Assembly: GCF_900107455.1 (NCBI RefSeq)
Contig: NZ_FNQB01000002.1
Coordinates: forward strand, 248,001 to 312,000
DNA length: 64,000 nucleotides
Direction: 5' to 3'
Source: Asanoa ishikariensis
Lineage (GTDB): Bacteria; Actinomycetota; Actinomycetes; Mycobacteriales; Micromonosporaceae
Below are positions 1,134 to 32,939 of this stretch, one piece after another. The position numbers and the translations under genes were made by a program. The first letter of the stretch is position 1, and each line of letters begins with the position of its first letter. The notes under the pieces are model-generated. The model was not told the origin of the DNA. It worked only from the letters and a program-made list of their open reading frames with translations, and did not search any database.

Positions 1134-1215
1134 GACCAAGCCCCTCCGAGGGGATAGTGAGGTTCGCTTGTTATAGCGACTCTACACGTAGCATCCCTAC
1201 CTATTAGTCCTACGG

Positions 1216-1249
1216 CTTGTAGTAGTCATGGATATGACTCTACTACAAG
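1216..1249. promoter_or_regulatory. BlaI-type operator palindrome upstream of cydA
   Basis: Two perfect 10-bp arms, CTTGTAGTAG (1216-1225) and CTACTACAAG (1240-1249), flank a 14-bp centre that itself starts TCAT and ends ATGACT. A weaker related motif, CTACACGTAG, lies at 1182-1191, closer to cydA. The TGTAGTAG half-site recurs just upstream of blaI at 2544-2552. BlaI/MecI repressors bind TACA/TGTA dyads, so this is the likely target of the neighbouring BlaI. The assignment to BlaI is inference from motif and context. Confidence 0.6.
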
Positions 1250-1264
1250 CGGTCGTAGACGTGC

Positions 1265-30562: not shown

Positions 30563-31488
30563 CGGTCGATCGCATCCAGCGCCGCCATCACCCGCAACGC
30601 GTTGGGCGCCAAGCCGATCCGCAGCGGTGTGTAGCCCCGCGGCTCGCCGTCGACCTCGACCGGCACCGGCCGGTCAGTCTCCAGCCAGATCTCGTCGGTG
30701 GCCAGGAACGGCTCCTCGCCGTGGGACCGCAGATGGCCGGTCGCCGCGTTGCGCGCCGTCTCCCGCAACAGCCGCACCCGGTTGGCGTCGCCGACGGGGT
30801 ACGCCACCAGCAGCCGATCGTCGGCGTCGGAATCCGCGGTGATCGGGCGGCCGGCGTGGAACCCGCCGTTGGCGACGTAGAGCTGGTGCGTCACGTACTC
30901 GTGCGAGCGCCCGTCCGCCCGCACGGTGACCCGCATCGGCCGGTGCCGGGTCAGCAGTGCCAGCGCGGTCGCCGGATAGGCGAACCGGCCGACCACCTTC
31001 TTCAACCGGGGCGGTGCGGTCGCGAAGATCTCCGCGGACATACCCACACCGACGTGGTTGGCGAACGGCATCTCGCCCGCCAGCCCGAGGTCGACGTCGA
31101 TCACCTTGCCGCCGGTCAGGATCGCCACCGACGCGTCCAGGTCGAGCGGGATGCCGAGCGTACGGGCGAAGTTGTTGGTCGTGCCGAGCGGCAGCAGCCC
31201 GAGCGCGACGTCCCGGTGCGCCAGATGCCGGGCGGCGGCGCCGATCGTGCCGTCGCCGCCACCGACGATCAGCACGTCGGGGCCGAGCTCGGTGGCCGAC
31301 TCGAGGCTGCCGCGCAGTTCGCGGGGGTCCTCGACGGGGAACCGGCCGAGCAGGTCGAAACCGGCCGCCTCGATGCGGCGCAGCACCTCCGGATAGAGCC
31401 GCCGGCCGCGGCGGGAGTGGGCGTTGACCAGCAGCACGGCCCGGCGTCCCTCGCGGATCGCCGCGGTCAGCTCCGGCTTCGTACGCAT
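30559..31488 (-). CDS. Diacylglycerol kinase-family lipid kinase
   Basis: 309 residues of the DagK/YegS/sphingosine kinase fold. The nucleotide motif GGGDGTIGAAARHL and the second motif LPLGTTNNFARTLGIP are clear, followed by the beta-sandwich domain with DADDRLLVAYPVGDANR. The enzyme phosphorylates a lipid hydroxyl such as diacylglycerol at the membrane, and the exact lipid is unknown. The start is ATG 31488. Divergent from the threonine leader/ThrRS unit. Confidence 0.88.
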   Translation of the reverse strand: MRTKPELTAAIREGRRAVLLVNAHSRRGRRLYPEVLRRIEAAGFDLLGRFPVEDPRELRGSLESATELGPDVLIVGGGDGTIGAAARHLAHRDVALGLLPLGTTNNFARTLGIPLDLDASVAILTGGKVIDVDLGLAGEMPFANHVGVGMSAEIFATAPPRLKKVVGRFAYPATALALLTRHRPMRVTVRADGRSHEYVTHQLYVANGGFHAGRPITADSDADDRLLVAYPVGDANRVRLLRETARNAATGHLRSHGEEPFLATDEIWLETDRPVPVEVDGEPRGYTPLRIGLAPNALRVMAALDAIDR

Positions 31489-31549
31489 GGAAAGTCCTCG
31501 GGGTCTTATTGGAGTGCGGCCGGGGCGGCGTCCTCGCTAGCCTGGCGGC

Positions 31550-31603
31550 ATGGTTGGGCCTGCACGCACGACGACGCCGGGATGTCCCGGCGTGCTGCGC
31601 TGA
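31550..31603 (+). CDS. Thr-rich leader peptide
   Basis: MVGPARTTTPGCPGVLR, 17 residues, with three consecutive Thr codons (ACG) at positions 7-9. The ATG lies 6 nt after the TAGCCT -10 box, the spacing seen for other leaderless genes here, so it can be translated without a ribosome site. The stop (TGA 31601-31603) falls just beyond hairpin 1. It precedes a threonyl-tRNA synthetase gene, so it probably senses charged tRNA-Thr. A peptide this short could arise by chance; the combination of features argues against that. Confidence 0.6.
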   Translation: MVGPARTTTPGCPGVLR

Positions 31604-31621
31604 CCCTACCGTCATCGATCC

Positions 31622-31650
31622 AGCCCCGGGCGACTCCGCTCGGGGCTTTC
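31622..31650 (+). terminator. Attenuator terminator hairpin before the ThrRS gene
   Basis: AGCCCCG (31622-31628) pairs with CGGGGCT (31641-31647), with an inner GCG/CGC helix around ACTC, and is followed by TTTC. It lies 47 bp before the ThrRS start and inside its leader, so it would end transcription prematurely unless the upstream sequence competes. Confidence 0.6.
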
Positions 31651-31696
31651 CGCTGCTCGCCGATGGGGTCGCCGCCCTATCTGTCAGGAGCAGACA

Positions 31697-32905
31697 ATGA
31701 TCGACCATCGCAAGCTCGGGCGTGAGCTCGGGATCTTCCACTCGGACCCGCGGTCCGGTGCGGGCCTGCCGATCTGGCTGCCCGCCGGCGCCACCGCCCG
31801 GCACGCCGTCGAGGAATACCTGCGTGACCTGGAACGGTGCAACGGATACCAGCATGTCTACTCACCACCGTTGGGCCGGCGCGAGCTGTTCGAGCTGTCC
31901 GGGCACCTGGACCACTTCGAGGACGACATGTTCCCGCCGATGCGCGTCTCCGAGGACGACGAGCTCTTACTGCGGCCGGCGCTGTGTCCACATCACTGTC
32001 TGGTCTATCTCGCGCGCGGGCGTTCGTACCGTGAGCTGCCGTTGCGGGTCGCCGAGATCGGTGGCATGTACCGCAGCGAGCGGTCGGGGGTGCTGGGCGG
32101 CCTGAGCCGGGTACGCGCGATCCATCTCAACGACTCACACATCTTCTGCGCTCTGGCCGACGTGGGTGCCGAGGTGGCGTCGGTGCTCCGCCTGGTCGAC
32201 GTGGCCCATGCCGCGCTCGGCGTGCGGGTCAGCGGCCTGCGGTTGGCGCTGCGCGGGCCGGGGGAGAAGTACGTGGGCTCGGACTCGTCGTGGGACCTGG
32301 CCGAGTCCCTGCTGCGGGAGGCGCTCGGCGACCGGTCCTATGTCGAGGCACCCGGCGAGGCGGCGTTCTACGGTCCGAAGATCGACATCCAGGTGGCGGA
32401 CGCGGCCGGGCGGGAATGGACCCTGTCGACCGTGCAGCTCGACTTCGACAAGCCGGCCCGGTTCGACCTGTCTTATGTGGACGCCGGCGGTGCTCGGGAA
32501 CGTCCGGTACTCATCCACCGCAGCCTGGTCGGCAGTATGGAGCGGCTCTTCGGCTACCTGATCGAGGCGCACGAGGGCGCGTTCCCGGTCTGGTACGCGC
32601 CACTGCAACTGCGGGTGCTGCCGGTGTCGGCCGACGCCGCCGCGGCGGCTTCGTCCTTCGCGGCCGCCGCCGTCGAGGCCGGGCTGCGCGCCGACGTCGC
32701 GGTCGAGGGCGGTTCGCTGGGCGCCCGCGTACGCGATGCCGCCGCGCTGCGGGTCCCGTACGTGGCGGTGATCGGCGCACGGGAGGCTTTGTCGGGCGAG
32801 GTGGCCCTGCGCGAGCGCGGCGGCCGCGAGCTCCCGCCGATGCCGGCAGCCGACGCGCTGCGCCTGATCACCGCCGCCGTAACCGAAGGAAGGGGCCCTT
32901 GTTAA
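31697..32905 (+). CDS. Short threonyl-tRNA synthetase (catalytic core plus anticodon domain)
   Basis: 402 residues, where a full ThrRS is about 680. It lacks the N-terminal TGS and editing domains and begins near the catalytic core (GRELGIFHSDPRSGAGLPIW). Zinc ligands are conserved: Cys in RPALCPHH, His in NDSHIFC, and His in PVLIHRSLVGSMERL. Motif 2 is present (GGMYRSERSG), as is a C-terminal anticodon-binding domain (about residues 300-395). It should charge tRNA-Thr without correcting Ser-tRNA-Thr, unless editing is supplied elsewhere. AGGAG (31686-31690) precedes the ATG. The end of the gene, including the stop, lies in a repeat element. Likely a second, inducible ThrRS; the housekeeping thrS is not in this window. 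Confidence 0.88.
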   Translation: MIDHRKLGRELGIFHSDPRSGAGLPIWLPAGATARHAVEEYLRDLERCNGYQHVYSPPLGRRELFELSGHLDHFEDDMFPPMRVSEDDELLLRPALCPHHCLVYLARGRSYRELPLRVAEIGGMYRSERSGVLGGLSRVRAIHLNDSHIFCALADVGAEVASVLRLVDVAHAALGVRVSGLRLALRGPGEKYVGSDSSWDLAESLLREALGDRSYVEAPGEAAFYGPKIDIQVADAAGREWTLSTVQLDFDKPARFDLSYVDAGGARERPVLIHRSLVGSMERLFGYLIEAHEGAFPVWYAPLQLRVLPVSADAAAAASSFAAAAVEAGLRADVAVEGGSLGARVRDAAALRVPYVAVIGAREALSGEVALRERGGRELPPMPAADALRLITAAVTEGRGPC

Positions 32906-32939
32906 CGCTTTCCGCATAGGAAGGGTCCCTTGTTAACGC
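32887..32939. repeat. Two direct copies of a GGAAGGG/CCCTTGTTAACGC repeat
   Basis: A 22-bp unit occurs at 32887-32908 and again at 32918-32939 with one difference (GGGGCCC versus GGGTCCC at the centre). Each contains a small palindrome, AAGGGNCCCTT. The first copy encodes the last residues and stop codon of the ThrRS gene. The same AGGAAGGGTCCCTTG core builds the large inverted repeat at 53543-53595, so this is a dispersed intergenic repeat placed at convergent gene ends. Confidence 0.8.

Follow-up and report, generated by a model that had tools for sequence, protein, structure and literature searches.

The auxiliary threonyl-tRNA synthetase (ThrRS) gene of Asanoa ishikariensis described here is preceded by a short open reading frame with three threonine codons in a row, which raises the question of whether the gene is controlled through translation of a leader peptide and, if so, at what level. 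We analysed the locus within a stretch of 64,000 nucleotides, hereafter the window, and compared it with the corresponding regions of related genomes. An earlier note on this DNA had proposed a threonine attenuator. The promoter-like box, the ATG, the 17 codons, the Thr run, both hairpins, the TTT and the ThrRS reading frame all lie where that note placed them (Table 1), and its reading is well supported by the comparison with relatives. We put the probability at roughly 85% that the locus works by leader-peptide attenuation and turns on a spare ThrRS in response to a shortage of charged tRNA-Thr.

Table 1. Features of the ThrRS leader region and gene (coordinates within the window)
Feature	Position	Strand	Remarks
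TAGCCT, -10-like box	31538..31543	+	puts the predicted start of a leaderless transcript at or beside the leader ATG
Leader ORF MVGPARTTTPGCPGVLR, 17 codons	31550..31603	+	ATG at 31550; stop UGA at 31601-31603
Three Thr codons ACG ACG ACG, proposed stalling site	31568..31576	+	conserved Thr run
Hairpin 1 (1:2), 8 bp, 4-nt loop	31574..31593	+	-15.7 kcal/mol; starts at the third ACG
Strand 2 of the proposed antiterminator	31584..31599	+	CCCGG 31586-31590 with CCGGG 31626-31630; GCUG 31594-31597 with CAGC 31621-31624
Hairpin 2 (3:4), 11 bp, terminator-like	31622..31647	+	-22.7 kcal/mol for 31622-31649; TTT at 31647-31649
Predicted long-range helix, 5' strand, GGCGACTCCG	31629..31638	+	loop and inner 5' arm of hairpin 2
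Predicted long-range helix, 3' strand, TGGGGTCGCC	31664..31673	+	12 nt 5' of the Shine-Dalgarno sequence
Shine-Dalgarno (SD) sequence AGGAG of the ThrRS gene	31686..31690	+	from sequence
Auxiliary threonyl-tRNA synthetase, 402 aa	31697..32905	+	catalytic and anticodon-binding domains only

An auxiliary ThrRS gene

The 402-aa product matched the Pfam families PF00587 (class II core) and PF03129 (anticodon-binding) and nothing else, and it matched the NCBIfam model TIGR00418 (thrS) above cut-off, from model position 172 on. The same genome encodes a second, longer ThrRS (matched part G000:C4:1914341-1915519) with 42% identity to the window's enzyme. Because the window's product has the core and anticodon-binding domains only and a longer ThrRS lies elsewhere in the genome, we assign the gene, by its predicted domains, as a spare ThrRS without N-terminal domains in a genome that also encodes the full-length enzyme. 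No run of three Thr codons was found within 300 nt before the longest reading frame of the full-length ThrRS. The FYGPK motif and the Cys/His/His positions, whose roles and numbering in ThrRS we presume, look intact in the spare enzyme, which speaks neither for nor against inhibitor resistance.

Matches to the window's ThrRS were found in 225 of 300 genomes of its own family (E <= 1e-100), 61 of 394 genomes of the class (E <= 1e-105), 75 of 150 genomes of the genus of G660 (E <= 1e-115) and 41 of 120 genomes of the family of G386 (E <= 1e-115). The genus of G660 is probably Streptomyces, judging from the identity of one leader (L225) with that of S. lividans. Named relatives among the best 8 of 80 loci belong to Micromonospora and Plantactinospora, which are the closest, and to Nocardia, Allokutzneria, Nocardiopsis and Nonomuraea; the remaining loci of those 80 show identities of 46% or less and look like ordinary ThrRS.

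Conservation of the leader peptide and its promoter box

A leader reading frame with Thr-Thr-(Thr)-Pro stands before ThrRS in 183 of 185 loci, the window included, a total that slightly overstates the number of independent genomes because L006/L112 and L011/L203 each look like the same strain. The first set accounts for 136 of 137 upstream regions, the window's own among them, and its single exception (L209) is a contig end. The hold-out set, whose regions were fetched later, contributes 47 of 48, five fetched loci having been dropped before counting as repeats of genomes already used. Its exception, L214 (G730), has an intact upstream region with no Thr leader, and hairpin 2 is present. Conservation on this scale removes chance as an explanation of the leader. 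Thr occupies all three positions of the run in 177 of the 183 leaders and two of the three in the other 6, and the third position is encoded by ACG in 136 of 136 loci. Residues preceding the run are variable across leaders. Those conserved after it coincide with hairpin 1, and we therefore read their conservation as a constraint on the RNA.

The start codon is preceded by TAnnnT at a distance of 6-9 nt in 183 of 183 leaders (most often 7 nt, in 126 leaders, followed by 6 nt in 53, with 8 nt in 3 and 9 nt in 1), a count to be read with the fact that the in-frame start of each leader was chosen by the presence of this box. As background, 194 of the 1916 ATG or GTG triplets in the same regions have TAnnnT, which by subtraction gives 11 of 1733 non-leader starts. 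The spacing fits a leaderless transcript.

Within the window, a scan for the layout (TAnnnT, 6-7 nt, ATG or GTG, and a 10-30-codon reading frame with three identical residues in a row) gave one match per strand, with 0.37 expected by chance per window on both strands together; a Thr run arose in none of 60 first-order Markov resamplings. The second match, on the minus strand, encodes MTTTSRRTNR and thus has a Thr run too. We rejected it as a leader, as it lies within a palindrome before a cydA-like gene, behind a BlaR1/BlaI-like pair, and looks like a repressor operator. We also considered a wider Thr regulon and rejected it: the Thr codons with the hairpin 1 motif occur at one other site in the genome, where no leader layout is apparent by eye, and that site lies inside mechanically called reading frames, two of them (415 and 489 aa) on its own strand and one (435 aa) on the other.

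Hairpins and the proposed antiterminator

Pairing was assessed in three alignments. The 50-leader set is a sequence-only alignment from outside the window's family, with 12 of 62 rows dropped as over the length limit or identical; the set from the window's family comprises 73 sequences, 1 of 74 rows having been dropped on the same grounds; and the hold-out alignment comprises 41 sequences, with 6 of 47 rows dropped (five too long, and L235 identical to another row) and its genomes belonging to families already represented in the first set.

The 6-bp core of hairpin 1 is paired in 100% of cells in the 50 relatives and in 99.6% in the 41, with no doubly changed cell in either; in the window's family, double changes are no more frequent than in shuffles. 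The 2:3 antiterminator behaves alike, being paired in 95.7% (50 set) and 100% (41 set) of cells, again with no doubly changed cell. Since both pairings hardly vary, covariation support for them is unobtainable. The comparison of relatives that the earlier note had suggested thus bore out the Thr codons, and it found hairpin 1 and the antiterminator invariant rather than covarying. Hairpin 2 is paired in 87.1% of cells in the 50-leader set and has 23 doubly changed cells (shuffle mean 7.0, reached in 0 of 500 shuffles), a number that the same alignment slid by one column also gives; in the hold-out set it has 6, reached in 0 of 500 shuffles.

The leader RNA from 31550 to 31660 folds at -54.4 kcal/mol, compared with a shuffled mean of -45.4 kcal/mol, and 1 of 200 dinucleotide shuffles was as good. 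The segments CCCGG and CCGGG, which the earlier note had proposed to pair, are indeed present. For the 2:3 duplex of the window, 22 of 60 shuffled partners gave an energy as good, and the duplex ranks within the best 3 of 60 shuffled partners in 30 of 136 loci. When the RNA from 31581 or 31584 to 31634 was folded, mimicking a ribosome on the Thr codons with strand 4 not yet made, the 2:3 helix formed at -20.4 and -20.6 kcal/mol. Once strand 4 was added, hairpin 2 always had the lowest computed energy, and the 2:3 switch must therefore be kinetic. In these models the 1:2, 2:3 and 3:4 pairings are all foldable, and a kinetic switch like that of known attenuators could operate.

The run of T at the 3' end of hairpin 2 has at least three residues in 26 of 136 loci, 4-7 in 8 of the 136 and fewer than three in 110, which makes classical intrinsic termination doubtful for much of the family. 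The earlier note's description of the layout as classical is thus not well supported: its parts can fold, but the antiterminator lacks any doubly changed cell and the T runs are short in much of the family. When the read-through RNA (31604-31720) is folded, CUGCUC at 31653-31658, just after hairpin 2, pairs with 31689-31694 in the SD region.

A conserved long-range complementarity

A second structural element, absent from the features listed in the earlier note, is a predicted helix between hairpin 2 and a segment near the SD sequence. In the window it comprises 10 bp, including two G-U pairs, and 2 of 100 shuffles were as good. Outside the window's family, the consensus GGGCGAGTG, which covers the hairpin 2 loop and inner 5' arm, is complementary to CACTCGCCC. 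A first per-locus test covered 128 of 136 loci, 8 with too little downstream sequence having been dropped, and placed the helix within the best 5 of 100 of the locus's own shuffles in 60 and outside the best 5% in 68. Between the end of the 3' strand and the ThrRS start lie 15-31 nt in 88 of these 128 loci, among them 48 of the 60 that ranked best. Because the loop window of this test had been picked after viewing the sequences, the test was repeated on new genomes, those of the hold-out set.

The 50-leader set has 94.2% of helix cells paired, as against 43-58% in slid controls, and 22 doubly changed cells (shuffle mean 5.9, reached in 0 of 500; slid 0-7). The 41 hold-out sequences, which had not been used in finding the helix, gave closely similar values, with 92.1% paired against 42-53% and 17 doubly changed cells (shuffle mean 5.3, reached in 0 of 500; slid 0-5). 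For the 73 sequences of the window's family, pairing was 77.9% against 34-54%; 16 doubly changed cells were reached in none of 500 shuffles, but slid versions gave 8 to 23. Double changes fall on 4, 4 and 6 helix pairs in the 50, 41 and 73 sets; of 500 shuffles, 39, 47 and 29 did as well. For the number of pair types, the corresponding figures were 53, 74 and 62 of 500. As the pair and type counts are less inflated by relatedness and stand out only moderately, we regard the shuffle support for the helix as moderate.

The double changes recur across labelled groups. The groups f19 and f21 show all three kinds of change, A-T to G-C, G-C to A-T and T-A to C-G; Nocardia shares the first two, Nonomuraea the last two and f20 the first, which gives four, four and three groups, with the caveat on these counts that Nonomuraea may belong to f19. 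All nine helix positions are paired in 59 of the 91 sequences of the two sets from outside the window's family, and variants include GGGTG/CACCC and GCAAGTG/CACTTGC. Three loci (L229, L230 and L231) carry the latter as a clean double change, GCAAGTG in the hairpin 2 loop and CACTTGC before the SD. Among 35 sequences with a non-consensus loop, the loop paired better with its own segment than with the consensus segment in 18, worse in 4 and equally well in 13. The predicted helix is not universal, several loci (e.g. L117, L159, L173 and L179) having no such pairing. In L214, which has no Thr leader, the segment before the SD is by eye complementary as in the long-range helix.

The helix may be knotted with the outer stem of hairpin 2, as a pseudoknot, or it may replace hairpin 2. 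It can form only once RNA polymerase is past hairpin 2, and so it cannot stop termination there; it could affect translation, or decide which of the structures lasts. Alternatively, it might hold the RNA in the antiterminated form.

Proposed mechanism

The leader reading frame, Thr run, promoter box, both hairpins and long-range complementarity, as brought out by the comparison, suggest the following course of events. Transcription would start at the leader AUG. When Thr-tRNA is plentiful, the ribosome would reach the UGA, hairpin 2 would form and expression would be off, through premature termination and possibly, in read-through molecules, through the helix of the hairpin 2 loop with the segment near the SD. 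When Thr-tRNA is short, the ribosome would halt on ACG ACG ACG and cover the 5' arm of hairpin 1; strand 2 would then pair with strand 3, hairpin 2 would not form and ThrRS would be made. Stalling, the 2:3 switch, the level of control (transcription or translation) and the signal are what we infer here.

Control of transcription, of translation or of both

The level of control can be read in two main ways. The first is attenuation of transcription only, as in the enterobacterial trp and thr operons, in which hairpin 2 would be an intrinsic terminator and the downstream helix irrelevant. We judge this reading plausible, at somewhat less than even odds. It agrees with the strength of hairpin 2 and the TTT that follows it in the window, with the longest T runs of the family, with a three-strand layout that can fold and with the moderate shuffle support for the helix on pair and type counts; the scarcity of runs of at least three T speaks against it, and so does the conserved complementarity downstream of the hairpin, which has no role in such a model.

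That scarcity of T runs is also the reason why control may act on translation besides transcription. In a mainly translational or dual mode, the hairpin 2 loop would pair 5' of the SD, forming either a pseudoknot on the outer stem or a helix in its place, and would limit ribosome entry at ThrRS; stalling at the Thr codons would remove hairpin 2 and with it the block. We hold this reading tentatively and, in view of the pair and type measures, rate it slightly below the first. The helix is highly paired relative to slid controls in three alignments, its double changes recur across families, its 3' strand ends at a confined distance from the ThrRS start in most loci and U-tracts are few; a leader peptide with a pseudoknot also has a precedent in the LEU element before leuA (PMC1262725, as excerpted). 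Against these points, the SD itself lies outside the helix, the inner GGGG cannot pair fully while the whole hairpin stands, so that more than one topology is conceivable, the helix could equally lock an ON state, and several loci lack it while the pair and type measures remain moderate. If control is translational or dual, its persistence in loci without a U-tract would be explained. In a more general form, which is no less tentative, the thrL elements of Actinobacteria may be two-level switches, in which the same ribosome-controlled hairpin may end transcription and present its loop to the segment before the SD, with a conserved pseudoknot or replacement helix setting translation of the spare ThrRS, and lineages could then lose the U-tract and keep control.

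Two further explanations would do without a stalled ribosome. In Escherichia coli, thrS is under feedback by the ThrRS protein itself, which binds a tRNA-like operator and needs its N-terminal domains to do so. A ThrRS gene with a structured leader invites the same explanation here; we consider it very improbable, as what is conserved is a run of codons that lies in frame within a translated leader, and the window's ThrRS lacks the N-terminal domains. A T-box riboswitch, although many aminoacyl-tRNA synthetase genes of Firmicutes are under T-box control, as are some actinobacterial genes (PMC9413887 and PMC1262725, as excerpted), can be set aside almost entirely, since no Rfam family was matched at its gathering threshold anywhere in the window and a search up to E 5 in 31450-31720 gave three matches, to unrelated sRNA families far below their thresholds.

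Relation to known leader peptides

The leader-peptide attenuator that we favour has a published counterpart. In S. lividans TK24, thrL lies before thrS (SLIV_19412-SLIV_19410), is leaderless by RNA-seq, encodes the peptide MKRVRPFLETTPGFVPAR and is described with one hairpin and no uridine-rich stretch (PMC8079986, as excerpted). The L225 leader encodes an 18-residue peptide identical to it, and the L225 ThrRS is 61% identical to the window's. By sequence, we assign the window's element as homologous to S. lividans thrL and as a further member of the known actinobacterial thrL-type leader-peptide attenuators. The two share a leader peptide before thrS, a Thr-Thr-Pro run and a downstream hairpin, and the leaderless start of thrL has a predicted counterpart in the window. 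They differ in that thrL has two Thr codons, against three in the window, where hairpin 2 is moreover followed by TTT. The excerpted account of thrL (PMC8079986), with its one hairpin, mentions no antiterminator and does not contain the word pseudoknot.

Leader peptides are also listed before alaS, trpS and leuS in S. lividans (PMC8079986, as excerpted), and a survey published in 2005 described classical attenuators before trpS and leuS and T-boxes before ileS in the genomes studied, with nothing for threonine in the excerpted text (PMC1262725). The expectation in the earlier note that ribosome-stalling control of a ThrRS would be unusual therefore does not hold. Its companion remark, that actinobacterial synthetase genes are better known for T-box control, was not wrong, T-boxes being more widespread in Actinobacteria than the 2005 survey had found (PMC9413887, as excerpted); it is the implied rarity of leader peptides that fails. 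The candidate Streptomyces leuS and trpS attenuators resemble the window's element in placing a leader peptide before an aminoacyl-tRNA synthetase gene, and they differ in amino acid and sequence (PMC1262725, as excerpted).

The LEU element, found before leuA in Actinobacteria with a leader peptide and a pseudoknot, is similar in having a short leader reading frame with a run of cognate codons, and its pseudoknot has a possible counterpart in the window's conserved long-range complementarity before the gene. Its base stem, however, forms between the codon run and the SD, whereas the Thr run ACGACGACG and the SD AGGAG of the window are not complementary, and the window has a strong terminator-like hairpin, unlike the LEU element (PMC1262725, as excerpted).

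Our comparison shows that the leader reported from S. lividans belongs to a conserved group found in several actinobacterial families and linked to a spare ThrRS that lacks N-terminal domains. The predicted long-range helix offers a testable idea of why such a leader can do without a proper terminator, a point that the S. lividans authors left unclear in the excerpted text (PMC8079986). It is the conserved helix that would set the window's leader apart as a variant worth testing. A ribosome-mediated attenuator reportedly also controls the auxiliary TrpRS of S. coelicolor, a spare enzyme like the window's ThrRS, with another amino acid and sequence. Among the matches listed for the literature on actinobacterial leader peptides and pseudoknots, thrL/thrS leaders and Actinoplanes attenuators, we found no report of long-range pairing in a thr leader and recognised no other description of the thr element; subscription work (on S. 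coelicolor TrpRS, and the Actinoplanes re-annotation cited in PMC8079986, as excerpted) could contain either.

Other features of the window

Between a BlaR1/BlaI-like pair (1265-2527) and a minus-strand cydA-like start, both named from a reading of their translations, lies the palindrome CTTGTAGTAG...CTACTACAAG (about 1200-1260, minus strand). It is a possible BlaI-type operator, and from its position before the cydA-like start the cyd genes may be under such a repressor. At and just past the ThrRS stop codon, direct repeats GGAAGGGnCCCTTGTTAACGC occupy 32888-32908 and 32919-32939. The repeat is a dispersed one, its 19-base core occurring in 67 copies in the genome (29 forward and 38 reverse, with 0 for a reversed-pattern control), often as nearby inverted pairs.
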